Assembly: GCA_001464955.1 (NCBI GenBank)
Contig: LNEM01000024.1
Coordinates: 186,001 to 250,000 of the forward strand
Reading direction: 5' to 3'
Source of the DNA: Rhizobiales bacterium Ga0077537
GTDB lineage: Bacteria > Pseudomonadota > Alphaproteobacteria > Rhizobiales > Hyphomicrobiaceae
DNA length: 64,000 nucleotides
The position numbers and the translations under genes were made by a program. The notes under the pieces are model-generated. The model was not told where the DNA came from. It ran no database searches and worked only from the letters and a program-made list of their open reading frames with translations. Within the stretch, counting starts at the first letter, position 1. Each line of letters begins with the position of its first letter. Below, piece after piece: positions 20,302 through 30,456 of the stretch.

Positions 20302-21795
20302 ATGCCACTGTTTGATATGTACGATTCGGATACGGGCTTGCTCAGATTGTCCGAGCTGGCGAGAGCAGGTCAGCGGGTCACGTTCGTGTCCGGCAACTTC
20401 AACGTACTGCACCCGGGTCATCTGCGCCTGTTGAAGTTTGCAGCCGAGCAGGCCGACCTCTTGCTCGTCGGCGTCAATCCGGACACGACACCCGGGGTAT
20501 CTGTGCCGGCCGCCGATCGGCTCGCCAACGTCCGCGCCCTCTCGCTTGTCGATCACGCATTCCTGTTGACCGGTCCGCCGTCCGACTTCATCGGCCGCTT
20601 TCGTCCCGCACTCGTCGTCAAGGGCAAGGAATTCGAGCACCGGGATAACCCGGAGCAGGACATCGTCGCATCCTACGGCGGTCGAGTTGTCTTCGGATCG
20701 GGCGAAACCCTGTTCTCCTCTTTCTCGATGCTCAACGAGGAGTTCACCCAGACCAACTTCTCGAGCATCCGCAAGGCGACGGAGTTCCCGCGCCGCCACG
20801 GCTTCGACGTTCGCTCGCTGCACGACTGCCTCGCGAGGTTCGCCGGTTTGCGCATGCTGGTGATCGGCGACCTGATCGTCGACGATTACATCACCTGCGA
20901 CCCCCTCGGCATGTCGCAGGAGGACCCGACGATCGTCGTCACGCCGATCGAGACCAAGACGTTCGTCGGCGGAGCGGGTGTCGTCGCGGCGCACGCGCGC
21001 GGGCTTGGCGCCGACGTGCGCTTCATGACCGTCGTCGGCGACGACGAGGCGGCCGAGTTCAGCCGCGCCAATCTAGAGCACCAGGGGATCGGCGTCTCGA
21101 TGGTGTTGGACGAAACGCGCCCCACCACGCGCAAGCAGCGCTTTCGCGCCAACGGCAAGACGCTCTTGCGGGTCAACCATTTGCGCCAGCATGCGATCAG
21201 TCCCGAGCTGTCCGCCCGGCTGCTGCGCGAGATCGAGGCGGCACTCCCGACCACCGATCTGTTACTGTTCTCCGACTTCAACTACGGCTGCCTGCCGCAA
21301 CCGCTCGTCGATGCCGTGACCGCGCTTGCCGGCGCCCGCGGCATCCCCATGTCCGCCGACAGCCAGGCATCGTCGCAACTCGCCGACATCTCCCGCTTCA
21401 AGGGCATGAGCCTGATCACGCCGACCGAGCGTGAGGCGCGCCTCGCCCTGCGCAACAACGAGGACGGCCTCGCCATCATCGCCGGTCAGCTCGCCGAGGC
21501 GGCCCGCGCCGAAACGGTGATCGTGACGCTCGGCTCCGAAGGCCTTCTGGTCCACGCGCGAAAGGGCGGCCACTACACGACCGACCTGCTGCCCGCCATG
21601 AACACCGCGCCGAAGGACGTGGCCGGCGCCGGCGACGTCCTCTTCACCAGCGCTTCGCTGGCGCTCGCCGCCGGCGTCGACATCTGGCGGAGCGTCTACC
21701 TCGGCGCCATCGCGGCAGCGTGTCAGGTGGGCCGGGTCGGCAACGCCCCGCTCTCGCTGCGCGACATCATCACCGAGCTCGACGCCCCCGGCTGA
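20302..21795 (+). CDS. Domain-permuted HldE-like nucleotidyltransferase / PfkB-family kinase
   Basis: 497 residues with two domains. Residues ~25-150 form a cytidylyltransferase-fold domain with FVSGNFNVLHPGHLRLLKFA (HPGH at 37-40). Residues ~180-490 form a ribokinase/PfkB domain: VIGDLIVDDYITCDP, FVGGAGVVAAHARGLGA, and the catalytic PKDVAGAGDVLF. These are the two domains of HldE (RfaE), which phosphorylates heptose-7-phosphate at C1 and adenylylates heptose-1-phosphate, but in the reverse order: E. coli HldE is kinase first. GmhA-like and GmhB genes in the same region support a heptose substrate. Other sugar phosphates remain possible. First gene of the cluster. Confidence 0.8.
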   Translation: MPLFDMYDSDTGLLRLSELARAGQRVTFVSGNFNVLHPGHLRLLKFAAEQADLLLVGVNPDTTPGVSVPAADRLANVRALSLVDHAFLLTGPPSDFIGRFRPALVVKGKEFEHRDNPEQDIVASYGGRVVFGSGETLFSSFSMLNEEFTQTNFSSIRKATEFPRRHGFDVRSLHDCLARFAGLRMLVIGDLIVDDYITCDPLGMSQEDPTIVVTPIETKTFVGGAGVVAAHARGLGADVRFMTVVGDDEAAEFSRANLEHQGIGVSMVLDETRPTTRKQRFRANGKTLLRVNHLRQHAISPELSARLLREIEAALPTTDLLLFSDFNYGCLPQPLVDAVTALAGARGIPMSADSQASSQLADISRFKGMSLITPTEREARLALRNNEDGLAIIAGQLAEAARAETVIVTLGSEGLLVHARKGGHYTTDLLPAMNTAPKDVAGAGDVLFTSASLALAAGVDIWRSVYLGAIAAACQVGRVGNAPLSLRDIITELDAPG

Positions 21796-21821: not shown

Positions 21822-22547
21822 ATGAAAGCCCTTTTGCTCGCCGCCGGTCTCGGCACGCGGCTCCGTCCCCTGACGGACACGGTACCCAAGTGCCTCGTGC
21901 CGATCCACGGAGTACCGCTCCTCGACTACTGGCTCCGCCTCGCTTTCGCCGGCGGCATCCAGCGTTGTCTTCTGAACACGCATTGGCTGGCCGAAAAAGT
22001 GGCGGCGCACGTGGCAGCCTCCCCCTGGCGCGATCGCGTCGACCTCGTCTACGAACCGGAATTGCTCGGCACCGGCGGCACATTGCTCGCCAATCGTGCC
22101 TGGTTTGGCGACGGCCCCGTGCTGGTCGCCCACGCCGACAACTTGACCGATTTCGACGTCGCAGCCTTCCGCACGGCTCATGCCGCCCGCCCTGCCGGCT
22201 GCGCCATGACCATGCTCGCATTCCGCACAGATGCTCCTGGCACGTGCGGCATCCTCGAACTCGACCCTTTGGGCATCGTGCGTCAGTTCCACGAGAAGGT
22301 GGCGAACCCGCCGGGCAATCTCGCCAATGGGGCCGTCTACATTCTGGAGCCTGAGCTGCTCGACGCGATAGCCGCTGCGTCTGCTGCCAAGGCGAGCCCT
22401 TTCGTCGATCTCTCCACCGAGATCATTCCGGCGTTTCTGGGGCGCATTCTGGCCTGGGAGACGACCGGCTATCATCGCGACATTGGCAACCCTGAAAGTT
22501 TGGCGCGTGCCCACGAGGAGTTTCGGCCACACATGGACGCCCCATGA
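21822..22547 (+). CDS. Sugar-phosphate nucleotidyltransferase (HddC/RmlA-like)
   Basis: 241 residues from the ATG at 21822, with GGAG seven bases upstream. The N-terminal signature LLLAAGLGTRLRPLTD...PKCLVPI is complete. LGTGGTLL and the metal-binding VAHADNLTDFD segment follow, as in the NTP-transferase family. In a heptose setting the expected role is GDP- or ADP-heptose formation from heptose-1-phosphate (HddC type). The upstream gene also carries a nucleotidyltransferase domain, so the cluster may make two activated sugars or use one domain for another step. The next 220 bases hold no gene; GAGGGGA precedes the following start. Confidence 0.8.
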   Translation: MKALLLAAGLGTRLRPLTDTVPKCLVPIHGVPLLDYWLRLAFAGGIQRCLLNTHWLAEKVAAHVAASPWRDRVDLVYEPELLGTGGTLLANRAWFGDGPVLVAHADNLTDFDVAAFRTAHAARPAGCAMTMLAFRTDAPGTCGILELDPLGIVRQFHEKVANPPGNLANGAVYILEPELLDAIAAASAAKASPFVDLSTEIIPAFLGRILAWETTGYHRDIGNPESLARAHEEFRPHMDAP

Positions 22548-22768: not shown

Positions 22769-23707
22769 ATGAAGCTTTTTGTGACGGGCGCCTGTGGCTA
22801 TAAGGGCAGCGTCCTGGTGCCCAAATTGCTCCGCGCCGGCCACCAGGTGGTGGCGTTCGACGCGCAGTGGTTCGGAAACGAGCTGCAGCCCCACCCCGAC
22901 CTGAAGGTCGTGAAGGGCGACGTCCGCAATCCCGACGAGATCGATCTCACCGGCATCGACGCCATCATTCACCTCTCGAGTGTCGCCAACGATCCCTGCG
23001 GCGATCTCGATCCGAAACTCACGTGGGAGATCAGCTGCCTCGCCACCATGCAGCTCGCCGATCGCGCCAGGCGCAGCGGCATCAAGCGCTTCATCTACGC
23101 CTCGTCCGGCAGCGTCTACGGCGTCAAGGACGAGGAACACGTCACCGAGGATCTCGAGCTGCTGCCGATCTCGGAGTACAACAAGACCAAGATGTGCGGC
23201 GAGCGCATCGTGCTCTCCTATGCTGACGACATGGTGGTCCAGATCGTGCGCCCGGCGACGGTCTGCGGCTACTCGCCCCGCATGCGCCTCGACGTGTCGG
23301 TCAACATGCTGACCATGCAGGCGCTCCAGAACGGCAAGATCACGGTGTTCGGCGGCGACCAGACGCGCCCCAACATCCACATCGACGACATCACCGATCT
23401 CTACATATTCCTGCTCGATCACCCCGAGCATACCGGCGTCTATAATGCCGGATTCGAGAATATCTCGATCATGGACATCGCGCGCATGGTCTCGAACCAC
23501 GTCGCCGCCGAGATCACGGTGACGCCGTCCAACGACCCGCGCTCCTATCGCGTCAACTCCGACAAGCTGCTCGCCACTGGTTTCCGCCCGAAGAAGACCG
23601 TCGAGGACGCGATCAAGGAGATCGTCGGCATGTATCGCCAGGGCGCCCTGAAGAACGACGATCGCTGGTACAATCTCAAATGGATGCAGAAAGAGGTGCT
23701 CGGATGA
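22769..23707 (+). CDS. NAD-dependent epimerase/dehydratase (extended SDR)
   Basis: 312 residues. The Rossmann motif is TGACGYKGS (residues 6-14, GxxGxxG), the catalytic Ser/Tyr/Lys are in SSGSVYGV and YNKTK, and the C-terminal half carries the substrate-domain segment RPNIHIDDITDLY. This is the extended SDR form acting on nucleotide sugars (epimerase, dehydratase or reductase). The exact reaction cannot be read from sequence. Its stop overlaps the next start by four bases (ATGA). All active-site residues are present, in contrast to the second SDR of the cluster. Confidence 0.85.
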   Translation: MKLFVTGACGYKGSVLVPKLLRAGHQVVAFDAQWFGNELQPHPDLKVVKGDVRNPDEIDLTGIDAIIHLSSVANDPCGDLDPKLTWEISCLATMQLADRARRSGIKRFIYASSGSVYGVKDEEHVTEDLELLPISEYNKTKMCGERIVLSYADDMVVQIVRPATVCGYSPRMRLDVSVNMLTMQALQNGKITVFGGDQTRPNIHIDDITDLYIFLLDHPEHTGVYNAGFENISIMDIARMVSNHVAAEITVTPSNDPRSYRVNSDKLLATGFRPKKTVEDAIKEIVGMYRQGALKNDDRWYNLKWMQKEVLG

Positions 23708-24333
23708 GCATCGCAGCCAGCACGGTGCCAGTCCCACCCGCGGCTGCGATGGCGGACGCCTCCGGCCTCTTTCGCGATTACGCCGAGCGACTGTCCGCGA
23801 CACTCCGCGGTTTCGATTGGTCGCCTGTGGAGACGCTTGCAGCCGACCTGCTCGACTGCTGGCGCACCGGTCGTCAGGTGTTCATCTGCGGCAACGGCGG
23901 CAGCGCCGGCAACGCCAACCACCTCGCCAACGACTTCATGTATCCGCTCTCGAAGCGGAAGGGCTCCGGCATCCGCATCCACGCCCTGTCGGACAATCCG
24001 GCCATTCTGACCTGCCTCGCCAACGACGAAGGCTACGACAACGTCTTCGCCTACCAGCTCGCCATTCAGGCCGACCGCGGCGACGTGCTGCTGGCCTTCT
24101 CCGGCTCTGGCAACTCCCCCAACATCGTGAAGGCGCTGGAGGAGGCCCGCACCATCGGCATGCGCAGCTACGCCGTGCTCGGCTTCGGGGGCGGCAGAGC
24201 GCTGTCGCTCGCCGACGTGCCGATCCACTTCGCCGTCGACGACATGCAGATCGCCGAGGATACCCAGACCATCGTCGGCCATATGATCGTGCAGTGGCTC
24301 TTCAAGCACCGCGACACGGTCCACGCCCCATGA
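23704..24333 (+). CDS. gmhA: SIS-domain isomerase, GmhA-like (sedoheptulose-7-phosphate isomerase)
   Basis: 209 residues from the ATG at 23704, which overlaps the previous stop. The SIS domain shows CGNGGSAGNANHLANDF, LAFSGSGNSPNIVKAL and the C-terminal IAEDTQTIVGHMIVQWLF, matching GmhA. GmhA converts sedoheptulose-7-phosphate to D-glycero-D-manno-heptose-7-phosphate, the first committed heptose step. The flanking transketolase could supply the substrate, and GmhB and the HldE-like enzyme act later. It overlaps the next gene by four bases as well. Confidence 0.85.
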   Translation: MSIAASTVPVPPAAAMADASGLFRDYAERLSATLRGFDWSPVETLAADLLDCWRTGRQVFICGNGGSAGNANHLANDFMYPLSKRKGSGIRIHALSDNPAILTCLANDEGYDNVFAYQLAIQADRGDVLLAFSGSGNSPNIVKALEEARTIGMRSYAVLGFGGGRALSLADVPIHFAVDDMQIAEDTQTIVGHMIVQWLFKHRDTVHAP

Positions 24334-25328
24334 CTGGCACACCACGCTTCCTCGTGCTCGGCTCGAACTCGTTCTCGGGTGCGAGCTTCTGCGACTTCCT
24401 CGCTGCGGCCGGCTACGACGTGCTGGCGACGAGCCGCTCCGACGAGCCCGACGCCGCGCTGCTCCCGTACAAGTGGCAGCCCCGCAAGGGCTCGGTCCGT
24501 TTCCGGCGCATCGATCTCAACCACGATCTCGATGCGCTCGCCGGCCTGATCGCCAGCGAACGACCGACCCACGTCGTCAATTTCGCGGCCCAGAGCATGG
24601 TCGGCGAGAGCTGGCTCTATCCCGACCACTGGATGATGACCAACGTCGTCTCGCTCGCCCGTCTCTCCGATGTCCTGCGCCGCGCCAGCGGCGTCGAGCG
24701 CTACGTCCACGTGACGACGCCGGAGGTCTACGGCTCCACCGAGGGCTGGGTGAAGGAGACGGCGCCCTTCAACCCGTCGACGCCCTACGCGACGTCGCGC
24801 GCCGCCGGCGACATGCACCTGCGCACCTATTTCGCGAACTACGGCTTCCCCGTCGTCTTCACGCGCGCCGCCAACGTCTACGGTCCGGGCCAGCAGCTCT
24901 ACCGCATCATCCCCCGCACTATCCTCGCCGCAATCGGCGGCCAGAAGCTGAAGCTCGACGGCGGCGGCAAGTCGGTGCGCGTCTTCATCCACATGACGGA
25001 CGTGTCCGACGCCACGCTCGCGATCGCGCTGCGCGGTACGCCCGGCGAGACCTATCATATCTCCGGCTATGAGCTGGTCTCGATCCGCGCCCTCGTCGAG
25101 ACCATTCTCCAGCGCCTCGGCAAGCGCTTCGAGGATTGCGTCGAGATCGGGCCCGAGCGTCCAGGCAAGGACACCGCCTACACTCTAGACAGCCTGAAGC
25201 TGCGCACCGAGCTCGGCTGGCGCGACCGCATCGGCCTCGAGGAAGGTATCGCTGACGTCGTGGCCTGGGCCGAGCGCTTCAAGGACCGCCTCGCATCGTT
25301 GCCGTCCCGCTACGACCACAAACCCTGA
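24330..25328 (+). CDS. NAD-dependent epimerase/dehydratase (GDP-mannose 4,6-dehydratase-like SDR)
   Basis: 332 residues from the ATG at 24330, four bases inside the previous gene. The overall layout is that of GDP-sugar dehydratases: FAAQSMVGESWLYPD, TPEVYGSTEGWVKE, FTRAANVYGPGQQ and FIHMTDVSDA. Two odd points are visible. The nucleotide-binding motif reads GSNSFSG, so the central Gly of GxxGxxG is Ser, and the catalytic YxxxK is YATSR, with Arg in place of Lys (codon CGC). It may be a diverged enzyme acting on an NDP-heptose rather than NDP-hexose. Activity should not be assumed. Confidence 0.8.
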   Translation: MTGTPRFLVLGSNSFSGASFCDFLAAAGYDVLATSRSDEPDAALLPYKWQPRKGSVRFRRIDLNHDLDALAGLIASERPTHVVNFAAQSMVGESWLYPDHWMMTNVVSLARLSDVLRRASGVERYVHVTTPEVYGSTEGWVKETAPFNPSTPYATSRAAGDMHLRTYFANYGFPVVFTRAANVYGPGQQLYRIIPRTILAAIGGQKLKLDGGGKSVRVFIHMTDVSDATLAIALRGTPGETYHISGYELVSIRALVETILQRLGKRFEDCVEIGPERPGKDTAYTLDSLKLRTELGWRDRIGLEEGIADVVAWAERFKDRLASLPSRYDHKP

Positions 25329-25382
25329 TCGTTCGCCGCAGCCTGAGTGAGCCCCTCCGAGAGAGCCCCCAGAGAGAGCACG

Positions 25383-26222
25383 ATGAGCCAGATGAAGCGC
25401 GAAGCCCCGGATCGAGCAGCCCTTTCGCGAGAAGCTGCGCGTCTCCGTGGGCGCGTGATCCAGATGAGCCACAAGGCGAGTGCGGCCCATCTGGCCTCAT
25501 CGCTCTCGTGCTGTGACGTCCTCGCGGCTGCCTATTGGCACGTCCTCCGGATCGATCCGGCGAAGCCCGCCGACCCCGCGCGCGACCGCTTCATCCTCTC
25601 GAAAGGTCACGCGGCGGCGGCGCTCTACGCGATCCTCGCTTTCCGTGGCTACTTCCCCGAGGAGGAGCTTGAAACCTACTGCCAGGACGGCGGCCGGCTC
25701 GCCGAGCACCCGCCGGCCAACATGCTGCCCGGCGTCGAGGCGGCGACCGGCTCGCTCGGGCACGGTCTCCCCATCGGAGTCGGGATGGCGCTCTCGGCCC
25801 GCATCAACAAGGCGAGCTACCGCGTCTATGCGCTGCTGTCGGACGGCGAGAACAACGAGGGCTCCGTCTGGGAAGCCGCGATGCTCGCCGCCGCCCAGCG
25901 CCTCGAGCACCTCTGCGTGATCGTCGACTACAACAAGTGGCAGGCGACGGCCCGCTCCAACGAAACGCTGATGCTGGCGCCCCTCGTCGACAAGTGGCGC
26001 GCCTTCGGCTGGGACGCCGTGGAGACCGACGGTCACGACGTCGCCGCTCTCGCGAACCTGATGCAGAACGTGCCGAACGGCTCTGGCAAGCCCGTCGCCA
26101 TCATCGCCCACACGGTCAAGGGCAAGGGCGTGTCGTTCATGGAAGACGACAACAACTGGCACTACCGCGCGCCCACCGCCGACGAGGTGGTCAAGGCCAT
26201 GAAGGAGCTCGGCCTCGCATGA
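25383..26222 (+). CDS. Transketolase, N-terminal subunit
   Basis: 279 residues from the ATG at 25383. It is the thiamine-diphosphate-binding half of a split transketolase: SKGHAAAALYAIL, the TGSLGHGLPIGVGMAL segment, and the TPP/Mg motif SDGENNEGSVWEAAM followed by DYNKWQAT. The motif begins SDG instead of GDG. The C-terminal half is the next gene, overlapping by four bases. It moves two-carbon units between ketose and aldose phosphates, which would give sedoheptulose-7-phosphate for GmhA. Split transketolases also occur in antibiotic and sugar clusters, so a different ketose product is possible. Confidence 0.88.
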   Translation: MSQMKREAPDRAALSREAARLRGRVIQMSHKASAAHLASSLSCCDVLAAAYWHVLRIDPAKPADPARDRFILSKGHAAAALYAILAFRGYFPEEELETYCQDGGRLAEHPPANMLPGVEAATGSLGHGLPIGVGMALSARINKASYRVYALLSDGENNEGSVWEAAMLAAAQRLEHLCVIVDYNKWQATARSNETLMLAPLVDKWRAFGWDAVETDGHDVAALANLMQNVPNGSGKPVAIIAHTVKGKGVSFMEDDNNWHYRAPTADEVVKAMKELGLA

Positions 26223-27142
26223 GAAACGCATTCGCAGACGAGCTGACGAAGCTCGGGAGCACCGACAAGCGCGTGGTCATGCTGTCGGGCGACATCGGCA
26301 ACCGCCTGTTCGACAAGTTCAAGGATGCCAATCCGGACCGCTTCTTCAATTGCGGCGTCGCGGAGCAGAACATGATGGGCCTCGCCGCTGGCATGGCCAT
26401 GTCGGGGCTCCGCCCGGTGGCCTATACGATCACGCCGTTCATCACCTCGCGCTGCCTCGAACAGATCCGCACCGACGCCTGCTATCACGAGCTGCCCGTC
26501 ACCATCGTCGCGGTCGGAGCGGGCCTCGCCTACTCGGGCCTCGGCCCGACGCACCACGCCTGCGAAGATATCGCACTGCTGCGCGCGCTCCCCAACATGA
26601 AGGTCGTCTGTCCGGCCGACGCATGGGAAGTACGCGGCGCGCTGCGGGCGGCACTGCGCCAGGATGGCCCCGTCTACATCCGCATGGGCAAGAAGGGCGA
26701 GCCGGTCATCCATTCCGAAGTGCCGGCCAGCTTCGAGATCGGCCGCGCCATCACCATCGAGGACGGTGCCGACGTGTGCCTCCTCTCGACGGGCAACATG
26801 CTGCCGGAAGCCATCGAGGCGGCGCACGCGCTCCGCGAGAAGGGCATCACCGCCCGCGTCGTGAGCTTCCACACCGTGAAGCCGCTGGACGAGGCATGCC
26901 TCTCGGAGGCGTTCGCCCGCTTCAAGCTCGTCGTCACGATCGAAGAGCATTCCCTGATCGGCGGCTTCGGCTCGGCCGTCGCCGAGTGGGTGATCGACAA
27001 TGGCGTCCGCACGGCGCCGTTGCTGCGCATCGGCACGCCGGATCGCTTCTTCAAGAAGTCGGGCGAGCAGGAATACGCGCGCGAGGAACTGGGCCTCACC
27101 GGCCACCAGATCGCCGACCGCGTCGCCCGAGCGCTCGGCTGA
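26219..27142 (+). CDS. Transketolase, C-terminal subunit
   Basis: 307 residues; the ATG lies inside the N-subunit stop codon region (ATGA). It carries the pyrimidine-binding domain (FNCGVAEQNMMGLAAGMAM, with the catalytic Glu) and the C-terminal transketolase domain (ADVCLLSTGNMLPEAIEAA, VVSFHTVKPLDEA, TIEEHSLIGGFGSAV). Together with the upstream gene it reconstitutes one complete transketolase. The tight coupling suggests equal expression of both halves. Confidence 0.88.
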   Translation: MRNAFADELTKLGSTDKRVVMLSGDIGNRLFDKFKDANPDRFFNCGVAEQNMMGLAAGMAMSGLRPVAYTITPFITSRCLEQIRTDACYHELPVTIVAVGAGLAYSGLGPTHHACEDIALLRALPNMKVVCPADAWEVRGALRAALRQDGPVYIRMGKKGEPVIHSEVPASFEIGRAITIEDGADVCLLSTGNMLPEAIEAAHALREKGITARVVSFHTVKPLDEACLSEAFARFKLVVTIEEHSLIGGFGSAVAEWVIDNGVRTAPLLRIGTPDRFFKKSGEQEYAREELGLTGHQIADRVARALG

Positions 27143-27201: not shown

Positions 27202-28242
27202 ATGAAGACCGAAGCAGCAATCCTCGTCGAGCTCGGAAAGCCGCTGGTCATGGCCGAACTCGAGATGCCCGCCATGAAGCCCGGCCAGGTACTCGTCGAG
27301 ATCGCCTACTCCGGCGCTTGCGGCACGCAAGTCAACGAGGCCATGGGCCACAAGGGCGAGGACAAGTGGTTGCCCCACTGCCTCGGCCACGAGGCGACCG
27401 GCATCGTGCTCGAGACCGCCACCGGCGTCACGCGCTTCAAGGCCGGCGACAAGGTCGTGCTGTCGTGGATCAAGGGACCCGGCTACGAGGCCGGCGGCGC
27501 CGTCTACGGCTGGGACGGTCGCAAGGTCAATGCTGGCGCCGTGACCACGTTCCAGCGCCACGCCCTGGTCTCCGAGAACCGCCTGACCCCGTTGCAGCCC
27601 GGTCTCGCCATGGACACCGCGATCCTTCTCGGCTGCGCCGCGCCGACCGGCATGGGCGCCGTCCTGAACGTTCTGAAGGCCGGCCCCGGTGACAGCATCG
27701 CCGTCTTCGGCACCGGAGGCATCGGCCTCAACGCCTTGATGGCTGCGTCATTTTCCGGCGCGACCACCGTCATCGGCGTCGATCCTGCATCGACACGCCG
27801 CGATCTGGCGCTCCGCTATGGCGCGACCCACGTCCTGGACCCGAACGCCGCCGACATCCTTGCCGAGATCCGCAAGCTCGTGCCGGGCGGCGTCGATCTC
27901 GCCGTCGAAGCGACCGGCATTCCCACGGTCATGGAACAGGCGATCAACGCCACCCGCGTTCAGGGCGGCCGCGCCGTCGTCATCGGCAACGCACGCGCCG
28001 GCTCGCGACTGACGCTCGACCCGTCGGTCTTCAATCAGGGCAAGAGCCTGATGGGCACCTGGGGCGGCGACAGCGTGCCGGATCGCGACTACCCGCGATT
28101 CGGCCGCCTGCTGGCGTCGGGACGCTTCCCCGTGGCCGGACTGCTCTCGGCGCCCTACCGCCTCGAGGACGCCGACAAGGCGCTGAAGGATCTCGCCGCC
28201 GGCACCATCGGACGCCCGCTGATCGACATGAGCCTCCGGTGA
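27202..28242 (+). CDS. Zinc-dependent alcohol dehydrogenase-like protein (medium-chain dehydrogenase)
   Basis: 346 residues of the medium-chain dehydrogenase family. Catalytic-zinc ligand segments are ACGTQV and CLGHEATG, and the cofactor-binding motif is GTGGIGLNALMAA with VGVDPAS after it. The four-cysteine structural-zinc loop of class III enzymes is absent; that place reads YEAGGAVYGWDGRK. Such enzymes in sugar clusters oxidise or reduce a polyol or aldose. The substrate is unknown. Its last bases overlap the start of the next gene as GTGA. Confidence 0.85.
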   Translation: MKTEAAILVELGKPLVMAELEMPAMKPGQVLVEIAYSGACGTQVNEAMGHKGEDKWLPHCLGHEATGIVLETATGVTRFKAGDKVVLSWIKGPGYEAGGAVYGWDGRKVNAGAVTTFQRHALVSENRLTPLQPGLAMDTAILLGCAAPTGMGAVLNVLKAGPGDSIAVFGTGGIGLNALMAASFSGATTVIGVDPASTRRDLALRYGATHVLDPNAADILAEIRKLVPGGVDLAVEATGIPTVMEQAINATRVQGGRAVVIGNARAGSRLTLDPSVFNQGKSLMGTWGGDSVPDRDYPRFGRLLASGRFPVAGLLSAPYRLEDADKALKDLAAGTIGRPLIDMSLR

Positions 28243-28856
28243 GCGCGCCCATGCGCATCGGCATCGACTTCGACAACACCATTGCCTGTTACGACGGCGT
28301 GTTTCGTGCGGCGGCCATCGAGCGCGGCCTCGTTCCGCCGGACATCGGTCCCTCGAAGAACGCTGTCCGCGACCTCCTGAACGGCACCGGCCGAAAGGAC
28401 GCGTTCACCGAGTTGCAGGGCTACGTCTACGGCGCGCGCATGGACCTTGCGCGGCCCTATCCCGGTGCCGCCGAGGCCATCGCATCCCTCCGCCGCGCCG
28501 GCCATGCGCTCTTCGTCGTCAGCCACAAGACGCGCACGCCCATGCGCGGCCCGGACTACGACCTCCACGCGGCCGCCCGGGGCTTTCTCGAGGCGAACGG
28601 CCTCGTCGGGCCCACCGCCTTCGCCGCTGACTGCATCCATTTCGAGGTGACGAAGGAGGCGAAGATCGCCCGCGCGACGGCGCTCGGCTGCGATGTCTTC
28701 ATCGACGATCTGCCGGAGATCCTGCGCATGGCCGACTTTCCGGCCGCCTGCCGCGCCATCCTGTTCGATCCCGAACGGCAGTGGCAGTCCGAGACGTTCG
28801 AGCGCCACGAGAGCTGGTCGTCTATCGCCGCAACGCTGATGGACGCCCGCTCGTGA
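28239..28856 (+). CDS. HAD-like protein, probable sugar phosphatase
   Basis: 205 residues. Motif I is DFDNTIACYD (DxDxT), motif II/III are carried by VVSHKTRTP, and motif IV is IDDLPEI. It is short and without a large cap, so it probably acts on a small phosphate ester or a phosphorylated protein. I use the GTG at 28239 that overlaps the upstream stop; an ATG at 28251 is equally possible. A four-base GTGA overlap links it to the kinase-like gene that follows. The substrate is not identifiable. Confidence 0.75.
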   Translation: MSAPMRIGIDFDNTIACYDGVFRAAAIERGLVPPDIGPSKNAVRDLLNGTGRKDAFTELQGYVYGARMDLARPYPGAAEAIASLRRAGHALFVVSHKTRTPMRGPDYDLHAAARGFLEANGLVGPTAFAADCIHFEVTKEAKIARATALGCDVFIDDLPEILRMADFPAACRAILFDPERQWQSETFERHESWSSIAATLMDARS

Positions 28857-29881
28857 CCACTTCAGCCGGCGCCCCCGAGGTCTGCGCTCTCGCCGCGCGC
28901 CTCGCCACCGCCGCGAAACTGCCGCCGCCTGTTTCTCTGACCGGCCTCGCCGGCGGCAAGAATAACCGCGTCTACCGCGTGACCCTCGAAGGCCGCGACG
29001 CACCGGTCGTTCTCAAGTGCTACTTCTCCGATGCGCGTGATGTGCGTGACCGGCGTCATGCCGAGTGGACATTCCTCGAACGCGCCTGGGCGGCGGGCAT
29101 TCGCAACGTGCCCGAGCCGCTCGCGACCGAACCTGCAGCTCACGCCGCCCTCTACAGCTTCGTCACCGGCGGCAAGCTCGCACCCGGCGAGGTCGCCGAT
29201 GCGCATGTCGCAGCCGCCATCCGCTTCGTCGTCGCGATCAACCGGACCGCCGGGATCTCGCTCCCCTTGCCGACGGCGTCCGAGGCCTGCTTCTCCATCG
29301 CGGCTCACGTCGATACTGTCGACCGCCGCGTCGCGCGCCTCGCGAACCTCGACGGCACGGCTCCACGCGTCGACGACGCACGACGCCTGGTGGCCGATCG
29401 CCTCGTGCCGGCCTGGACGCGCATCCGCAGCCGCATCCTGGCACTCCCCGGCGACGCGACGGAGGAACTGGGTCAGGCCAACCGCTGCATATCGCCGTCC
29501 GACTTCGGTTTTCACAACGCGCTGGTCTCAGCGACGGGCGACGTCTCATTCATTGATTTCGAATACGCGGGCCGCGACGATCCCGCGAAGCTTGTCTGCG
29601 ATTTCTTCTGTCAGCCCGAGATCCCCGTGCCGACTGGCCATCTCGACGGCGTTCTCGATGGCCTGAGCGGCGGCTTGCCGGTCGATGCTCACTTCCGGGA
29701 CCGCGCGATGACCCTTCTCGACGCCTATCGCATCAAGTGGGCGTGCATCATCCTGAACGAGTTTCTGCCCGTCGACGCCGCCCGCCGGGCGTTCGCGGAT
29801 GCAGGCGCGCGGGAAGCGCGGTGCGAGATCCAGCTCGCCAAGGCCGCACACACGCTGTCGCAGGTGGACGAGACGGCCTGA
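28853..29881 (+). CDS. APH/choline-kinase-fold phosphotransferase
   Basis: 342 residues starting at GTG 28853, inside the stop of the HAD gene. Features of the aminoglycoside/choline kinase fold: VVLKCYF (ATP-binding Lys), then SPSDFGFHNAL, where the catalytic Asp sits in a Brenner-type motif lacking the usual preceding His, then FIDFEYAGRDDP for metal binding. These kinases phosphorylate sugars, choline or antibiotics. In this cluster a sugar, perhaps at the anomeric carbon, is most likely. It ends 11 bases before the stop of convergent gmhB. Confidence 0.75.
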   Translation: MTTSAGAPEVCALAARLATAAKLPPPVSLTGLAGGKNNRVYRVTLEGRDAPVVLKCYFSDARDVRDRRHAEWTFLERAWAAGIRNVPEPLATEPAAHAALYSFVTGGKLAPGEVADAHVAAAIRFVVAINRTAGISLPLPTASEACFSIAAHVDTVDRRVARLANLDGTAPRVDDARRLVADRLVPAWTRIRSRILALPGDATEELGQANRCISPSDFGFHNALVSATGDVSFIDFEYAGRDDPAKLVCDFFCQPEIPVPTGHLDGVLDGLSGGLPVDAHFRDRAMTLLDAYRIKWACIILNEFLPVDAARRAFADAGAREARCEIQLAKAAHTLSQVDETA

Positions 29882-29892
29882 CGTGGTCGATT

Positions 29893-30456
29893 TCAGGGCG
29901 GGTCGATCGCGGCGGCATTAAGCCAACTGGCGGCGGCCTTCACGTCCGGCAGACGCACGACGCCGTCCAGTCCCGGCGGCGGCGAGGCCTTCGGCTCACC
30001 GACGAGCAGCAGCCGCCCGACACCCGCCGCATGTCCCGCCTGCATGTCCGTCCACTGGTCGCCGATCATGATCGACCGCCCGAGATCGAGACCGAGGTCC
30101 TGCGCCGCCTGCAGCAGCATGCCGGGCTCGGGCTTTCGCCAGGGATGCGCCGCCCGATAGCGCTCGACCACCGCCTCCGGATGGAACGGACAGTGGTAGA
30201 CCCGCGCGATGTCGATACCCCGGTCGGCCAGTTGCTCGAGCATCCACCCCGTGAGGCGCTCGAAATCGTCGGAGGTATAATAGCCTCGCCCGATCCCCGA
30301 CTGGTTGGTGACGATGACGAGCAGATGGCCGCGCTCCTGCGCCTTCGCGAGCATGTCGAACACGCCGTCGCGCCACTCGAACGCCGCGATCTCGGAGACA
30401 TACCCGCGATCGACGTTGATCACGCCATCACGGTCGAGAAGGAGCGCAGTTCGCAT
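29893..30456 (-). CDS. gmhB: D-glycero-D-manno-heptose 1,7-bisphosphate 7-phosphatase-like HAD protein
   Basis: 187 residues of the HAD-IIIA/GmhB family. LLLDRDGVINVD is motif I, VTNQSGIGRG motif II, and WRKPEPGM plus MIGDQWTDMQAG motifs III and IV. GmhB removes the C7 phosphate of heptose-1,7-bisphosphate. The zinc loop of E. coli GmhB has four ligands; here the first pair is kept (HCPFHP) but the second reads AHPWRKP instead of CxCRKP, so the site is incomplete or uses His. Transcribed toward the heptose cluster from the opposite strand. The 143 bases between it and the next gene hold nothing I recognise. Confidence 0.85.
   Translation of the reverse strand: MRTALLLDRDGVINVDRGYVSEIAAFEWRDGVFDMLAKAQERGHLLVIVTNQSGIGRGYYTSDDFERLTGWMLEQLADRGIDIARVYHCPFHPEAVVERYRAAHPWRKPEPGMLLQAAQDLGLDLGRSIMIGDQWTDMQAGHAAGVGRLLLVGEPKASPPPGLDGVVRLPDVKAAASWLNAAAIDPP

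Follow-up and report, generated by a model that had tools for sequence, protein, structure and literature searches.

A reversed-order HldE-like protein opens a ten-gene operon shared with the gdh locus of Bradyrhizobium and is probably linked to bradyrhizose-type sugars

The NT-PfkB locus

The window, i.e. the whole stretch of DNA that was analysed (64,000 nucleotides, positions 186,001 to 250,000 of contig LNEM01000024.1 of Rhizobiales bacterium Ga0077537), contains at positions 20302-21795 of the + strand a single, intact open reading frame with an ATG start, which encodes a protein of 497 amino acids (NT-PfkB). It opens a run of ten genes, being followed by NTPt, SDR1, SIS, SDR2, TKN, TKC, ADH, HAD and APH, and the gaps and overlaps between the NT-PfkB and APH genes are consistent with one operon. 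The features of the locus are the following.

20302..21795, + strand: NT-PfkB, reversed-order HldE-like protein (open reading frame, Pfam, named models, AlphaFold2, structure matches)
20389..20427, + strand: codons of the HxGH motif, SGNFNVLHPGHLR (residues 30-42), with N in place of the D of canonical HldE
20905..21774, + strand: PfkB kinase region (residues approx. 202-491; Pfam and motifs), with SDFNYG and DSQ (not SDYxKG and DPK) and GAGD
21822..22547, + strand: NTPt, sugar-1-phosphate nucleotidyltransferase (PF00483), 26 bp downstream of NT-PfkB
22769..23707, + strand: SDR1, NAD-dependent epimerase/dehydratase, 87-89% identical to the Bradyrhizobium orthologues
23680..24333, + strand: SIS, GmhA-like sugar isomerase, start uncertain
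24330..25328, + strand: SDR2, dTDP-glucose 4,6-dehydratase-like, orthologue of gdh of Bradyrhizobium ORS285
25347..26222, + strand: TKN, N-terminal half of a split transketolase
26219..27142, + strand: TKC, C-terminal half of the split transketolase
27202..28242, + strand: ADH, zinc-type alcohol dehydrogenase
28239..28856, + strand: HAD-like phosphatase, with a Pfam score under the gathering threshold
28781..29881, + strand: APH, phosphotransferase-family kinase, start uncertain, overlaps HAD
29893..30456, - strand: GmhB-like phosphatase (TIGR00213, 182.4 bits, cut-off 149.6), convergent and outside the operon

No glycosyltransferase or O-antigen exporter gene adjoins the operon within the window. 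The genome has a second, full-length transketolase apart from the operon, so that the split enzyme is a dedicated one. In the SIS protein, as in nearly all SIS proteins linked to such cassettes, Asp aligns with the catalytic Glu65 of E. coli GmhA, while His61 is kept in these proteins and His180 in most of them. Given the Asp at this position, the isomerase is probably not a standard GmhA. The convergent GmhB-type phosphatase may supply a distal phosphatase step.

Domain organization and predicted fold

Pfam places CTP_transf_like at residues 29-89 of NT-PfkB, ahead of PfkB at residues 202-481, both above the gathering score, and the corresponding domains span approximately residues 20-150 (HxGH nucleotidyltransferase) and 178-491 (PfkB kinase). 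The first-pass annotation, made from the letters of the DNA, had described the gene as an HldE-like fusion with its two domains in reverse order, and this description holds. It had also noted the active-site motifs of both domains, of which HPGH (residues 37-40) and GAGD (residues 442-445) are indeed present, but GNFN replaces GxFD in the N-terminal domain and the KG..RP loop is missing. An AlphaFold2 model (NT-PfkB with 43 relatives, mean pLDDT 89.6) consists of two separately folded domains, the stretch between them (residues approx. 132-152) being weakly predicted.

The closest solved structure to the kinase half is that of HldA (4e84, Z 38.3), the next different kinase scoring 32.4. When folded alone, the N-terminal half has HldC (5xf2, Z 17.4) as its top match, tied with the cytidylyltransferase domain of Fom1 (17.1). 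An assembly artefact, a frameshift, a chimera or a chance open reading frame were ruled out, the same order being found in one open frame in more than 100 genomes. A defence system was also considered and dropped (no PADLOC match).

Position with respect to HldE

NT-PfkB resembles HldE (E. coli b3052), HldA and HldC in both domain families and in the GAGD and HxGH motifs. With respect to HldE, it differs in domain order, in scores that stay below the cut-offs, in two kinase lysines, in GNFN, in the absent KG..RP loop and in its operon. In HldE the kinase comes first in a single chain, whereas here the transferase leads. The best named models for the two halves are TIGR02198 for the kinase (199.6 bits, about half of the cut-off of 345) and TIGR02199 for the transferase (66.5 bits, about a third of the cut-off of 181.5), both matches lying below the equivalog level, and NF008454 gives 163.5 against a cut-off of 521.

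The first-pass annotation had named ribokinase and glycerol-3-phosphate cytidylyltransferase as groups with which either domain might instead be found; neither domain groups outside the HldE lineage. A ribokinase identity of the kinase domain was rejected on the basis of its score (66.5 bits, cut-off 299.65) and of the position of ribokinase as outgroup in the tree, and the glycerol-3-phosphate cytidylyltransferase model TIGR01518 gives only 18.4 bits (cut-off 165.4).

Trees of both domains were built from samples that leave aside the single-domain HldA and HldC and Coxiella CBU0678, and in neither of them does the reversed protein nest inside the canonical clade. In the kinase tree all reversed proteins form one group beside canonical HldE (SH-aLRT 95), while ribokinase and the remaining PfkB kinases branch outside both; this tree carries a long-branch warning for the outgroup, and only the ingroup split is relied on. 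The transferase tree splits reversed from canonical proteins at 100/99 and gives the clade containing the window's protein a support of 98/91. One sequence labelled as canonical (L120) sits in the reversed group of the kinase tree; it is a fragment of a reversed gene cut off by the end of its contig. Thus, as judged from the sequences, the reversed family belongs to the HldE lineage, beside canonical HldE and not inside it. Since the two trees agree, the halves have travelled together, and a single origin of the reversed order across the family is the simplest reading. The order may go back either to a permuted HldE or to the joining of two genes that were once separate.

Distribution of the reversed-order family

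Reversed proteins were found in 37 of 385 alphaproteobacterial genomes (E<=1e-40). Among 297 genomes of the window's taxonomic order they fall into three groups, assigned by motif and indicated here as clade A (approx. 60% identity), clade B (approx. 33%) and clade C (approx. 26%), the window's protein belonging to the first. Clade A was detected in 16 of 265 Bradyrhizobium genomes (E<=1e-80). A scan of genome contigs yielded 80 loci from Pseudomonadota, Omnitrophota, Acidobacteriota, Actinomycetota, Bacteroidota, SAR11 and a metagenome-assembled genome (MAG) of Thermoplasmata. In the latter (L097), a clade-B gene lies with a GmhB-like and an SDR gene. Three loci (L044, L064, L100) with differing reversed genes come from MAG records titled Bordetella parapertussis, titles that are probably wrong.

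Within the taxonomic family of the window's organism, the reversed protein was absent from all 12 further members sampled (0/12), and from this patchy presence horizontal transfer of the gene seems likely. The reversed order is therefore neither unique nor new, but the mark of a patchily widespread family. The suggestion that it might reflect an independent fusion in the organism of the window is not borne out, the order being widespread and having already been described in Coxiella (PMC5843353).

Residues that set the family apart

The lysines of SDYxKG and DPK are both present in all 15 canonical HldE sequences aligned, and also in the solved HldA, whereas neither is found in any of 121 reversed proteins. 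In nearly all of the latter the first motif reads DFxxG, the residue ahead of the G being Y, F or H. At the DPK lysine position the reversed proteins have Q. NT-PfkB fits this pattern, with HxGH followed by PfkB, DFxxG in the kinase and Q in place of the DPK lysine. Glu143 of ribokinase, a sugar contact, is the residue aligned with the D of SDYxKG, so that a changed acceptor pocket in the reversed proteins is a reasonable inference; the role given here to the two canonical lysines is a putative one, read from the alignment.

The transferase domain divides the family: clades B and C still have GxFD together with the KG..RP loop. In clade A, HxGH is kept, the KG..RP loop is lost and nearly all members have GxFN, mostly GNFN (the exceptions are four marine members with GNFD and one with GNFF), but the contig scan was seeded with the patterns [NVT]F[DN] and GGAG, so that motif counts could be biased.

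Correspondence with the gdh operon of Bradyrhizobium

A transposon screen of Bradyrhizobium ORS285 yielded gdh mutants without bradyrhizose O-antigen, gdh being a dTDP-glucose 4,6-dehydratase gene in a conserved cluster of eleven genes (PMC4743980). According to the authors the mutants may be polar (PMC4743980), so that bradyrhizose is tied to the operon and not to each of its genes. The genes for bradyrhizose synthesis were stated by the discoverers of the operon to be unknown (PMC4743980); no later account of them was found in the literature searched. Likewise, the search returned no published cassette of split transketolase, SIS and nucleotidyltransferase (subscription journals lay outside it).

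The published gdh primers for ORS285 encode DAFLPYKW and DMSLRTYF, which are motifs of SDR2. In one Bradyrhizobium genome (G920) both match SDR2 without mismatch, with a product of 381 bp, and both rfaL primers match without mismatch within an open reading frame of 427 amino acids, with a product of 338 bp; the two primer sites are 43.8 kb apart. A homologue of the 427-residue protein in another Bradyrhizobium genome has the Wzy_C ligase domain. The published figures are a ligase of 427 amino acids, fragments of 300-400 bp, a distance of approximately 44 kb between gdh and rfaL and eleven genes (PMC4743980). On the basis of primer matches and spacing, we take G920 to be ORS285 or a near-identical strain, and the published cluster was matched through primers, spacing and gene count rather than gene name by gene name.

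Ten Bradyrhizobium genomes and two further loci (L050, Bradyrhizobium sp. SRS-191; L054, B. erythrophlei) share one arrangement of exactly eleven genes, namely NT-PfkB, NTPt, SDR1, SIS, SDR2, TKN, TKC, ADH, HAD, APH and a methyltransferase. The window contains the first ten of them in the same order and on the same strand, with no loss or insertion, at 51-89% identity. Its SDR2 is 77-80% identical to the Bradyrhizobium orthologues and has the same 381-bp primer spacing. The eleventh gene, 80% identical, lies on a different contig of this genome (G000:C8:65309-65968, L204), where it adjoins a TPR-like and a weakly sulfotransferase-like open reading frame. Thus the window has ten of the eleven genes of the ORS285 operon (PMC4743980) in unchanged order, and the genome has the last one elsewhere, but the window's operon is not beside O-antigen export or ligase genes.

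In the five Bradyrhizobium genomes examined for it, a canonical HldE is encoded approximately 40-50 kb from the operon, so that their core heptose is not the task of the reversed protein. This bears on one alternative, namely that NT-PfkB is a heptose enzyme in which domain order makes no difference. For such a role one may cite the HldE domains as best named models and HldA and HldC as best structures, the adjoining GmhA-like and GmhB-like genes, and the fact that no other HldE was found in the window's genome. However, every HldE-family score is far below its equivalog cut-off; neither HldD nor GmhA was found above cut-off in the same genome, the sole GmhA-like match being the SIS gene of the operon; the kinase pocket lysines and the GxFD and KG..RP motifs of the transferase differ; and Bradyrhizobium strains have NT-PfkB in addition to canonical HldE. 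We consider this alternative very unlikely. Of the heptose-enzyme reading in the first-pass annotation there remains the descent of both domains from the HldE lineage (with TIGR02198 and TIGR02199 as best named models), but a permuted HldE at work in ordinary heptose synthesis is opposed by the scores, the trees, the missing lysines and the operon. NT-PfkB is most likely a reversed HldE paralogue in a pathway for a bradyrhizose-type, i.e. unusual, sugar, and not for the ordinary heptose of lipopolysaccharide.

Neighbouring genes across the clades

NTPt accompanies the reversed gene in all 34 long clade-A loci and in none of the 22 loci of clades B and C, while GmhB-like genes show a roughly opposite distribution (15 of 18 in clade B, three of 34 in clade A). 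Genes for SDR1-like proteins and for split transketolases turn up in each of the three clades. Together, the GNFN change and the link with NTPt suggest that nucleotidylation may have been handed over to the neighbouring enzyme, with the proviso that the correlation corresponds to one evolutionary split.

Roughly half of the clade-A loci had neither a transketolase nor a SIS gene in the stretch of DNA seen, which indicates that the NT-PfkB/NTPt pair serves other sugars too; probably it serves several. Clade-A genes also occur together with C-methyltransferase, aminotransferase and flagellin genes. Flagellin-like genes near by suggest that some clade-A cassettes make flagellin glycans; there are eight loci of this kind, including L072 (14294-15169). 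In another locus (L034) a gene related to the GmhB-type phosphatase of the window comes after the cassette.

Proposed pathway

Bradyrhizose is a ten-carbon, inositol-fused sugar. The anatomy of the protein, its phylogeny and the identity of the operon are demonstrated; the enzyme activities and the product of the window's operon are inferred, and we know of no clade-A member with a known activity. With these premises, it seems fairly probable that the ten-gene operon provides the precursor of bradyrhizose or of a close relative, being orthologous to the gdh operon of photosynthetic Bradyrhizobium. In the route envisaged, a higher-carbon aldose (phosphate) would be built by the operon's own split transketolase together with the SIS isomerase, carbon count and order of steps being provisional. 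The PfkB domain would phosphorylate the anomeric oxygen (O-1) of this aldose, and the HAD phosphatase, or the adjacent GmhB-like one, would take off the distal phosphate. The sugar-1-phosphate would then be nucleotidylated, in clade A mainly by the neighbouring PF00483 enzyme (NTPt), while the HxGH domain at the N-terminus would have been kept for an altered function and would perhaps share in this step. Finally, SDR1, SDR2 and ADH would oxidise, epimerise and help to close the ring.

A more radical version of the same scheme, compatible with it as a sub-case, regards the N-terminal domain as catalytically retired and serving as scaffold or regulator, nucleotidylation having been taken over by the PF00483 enzyme. 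It agrees with the joint occurrence of GNFN, the lost KG..RP loop and NTPt throughout the long clade-A loci, with the retention of GxFD in clades B and C, which lack NTPt, and with the low confidence of the prediction for the segment that would hold the ISTT motif. However, clade A has preserved HxGH and the VKG motif almost completely, which is not expected of a dead domain, the correlation amounts to one split, and other active proteins of the same fold (NMN adenylyltransferases) tolerate an N in place of the D of GxFD. On balance, retirement of the domain is a possibility that we regard with some doubt.

Rather unlikely, in our view, is that the operon makes a different sugar here, e.g. one with a two-carbon branch, the transketolase branching a keto-sugar nucleotide and bradyrhizose being one product of a wider family. 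The varied company of clade-A genes (C-methyltransferases, aminotransferases, flagellins), the partial cassettes and the occurrence in Rhodopseudomonas favour it, as does the branched sugar known from the O-antigen of R. palustris (PMC9912281), but the window has the Bradyrhizobium operon unbroken from its first to its tenth gene, with the eleventh elsewhere in the genome.

A broader proposal, which extends the bradyrhizose precursor route to the whole family, is put forward tentatively and at somewhat less than even confidence. The reversed proteins would form a family of their own rather than misordered HldE, providing the sugar-1-kinase (and, in some clades, the nucleotidyltransferase) of a widespread split-transketolase pathway for higher-carbon or branched surface sugars, of which bradyrhizose and the O-antigen sugar of Coxiella would be two outputs, the fused transferase of the window's clade being repurposed with a new PF00483 partner.

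What was already known is the reversed order; the operon identity and the family-wide changes in pocket and motifs are new. The gene content of the operon is thereby identified, and found nearly intact outside Bradyrhizobium. Its first enzyme is tied to a family with fixed substitutions with respect to HldE, which gives a defined set of proteins for testing. It also follows that the automatic label 'bifunctional heptose kinase/adenylyltransferase HldE' is probably wrong for a large family.

Comparison with other systems

The reversed order, adenylyltransferase followed by kinase, was reported in 2018 for CBU0678 of Coxiella burnetii, which is needed for phase I lipopolysaccharide with full-length O-antigen, has genes for a phosphoheptose isomerase and an epimerase near by and occurs in an organism that also encodes a canonical HldE, CBU1655 (PMC5843353). 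CBU0678 shares with NT-PfkB the domain order, a comparison made by description and not by sequence. By annotation its locus, with SIS, GmhB and two SDR genes upstream, is like clade B and not like clade A of the window, so that the Coxiella O-antigen locus may belong to a clade-B-like family of cassettes.

The lincosamide octose pathway (LmbR, LmbN, LmbP, LmbK, LmbO) offers an analogy of logic. Both comprise an enzyme forming a C-C bond, an isomerase, a kinase, a phosphatase and a nucleotidyltransferase, then a dehydrogenase and an epimerase, which is the order of steps in the octose pathway. The difference is that a transaldolase is used there and a split transketolase is present in the window's operon. 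The functions of the octose genes are described in PMC12945683.

In the clade-B loci L035-L039 and L098-L123 the gene order is SIS, GmhB, SDR, SDR, NT-PfkB, which resembles the annotated CBU0674-CBU0678.
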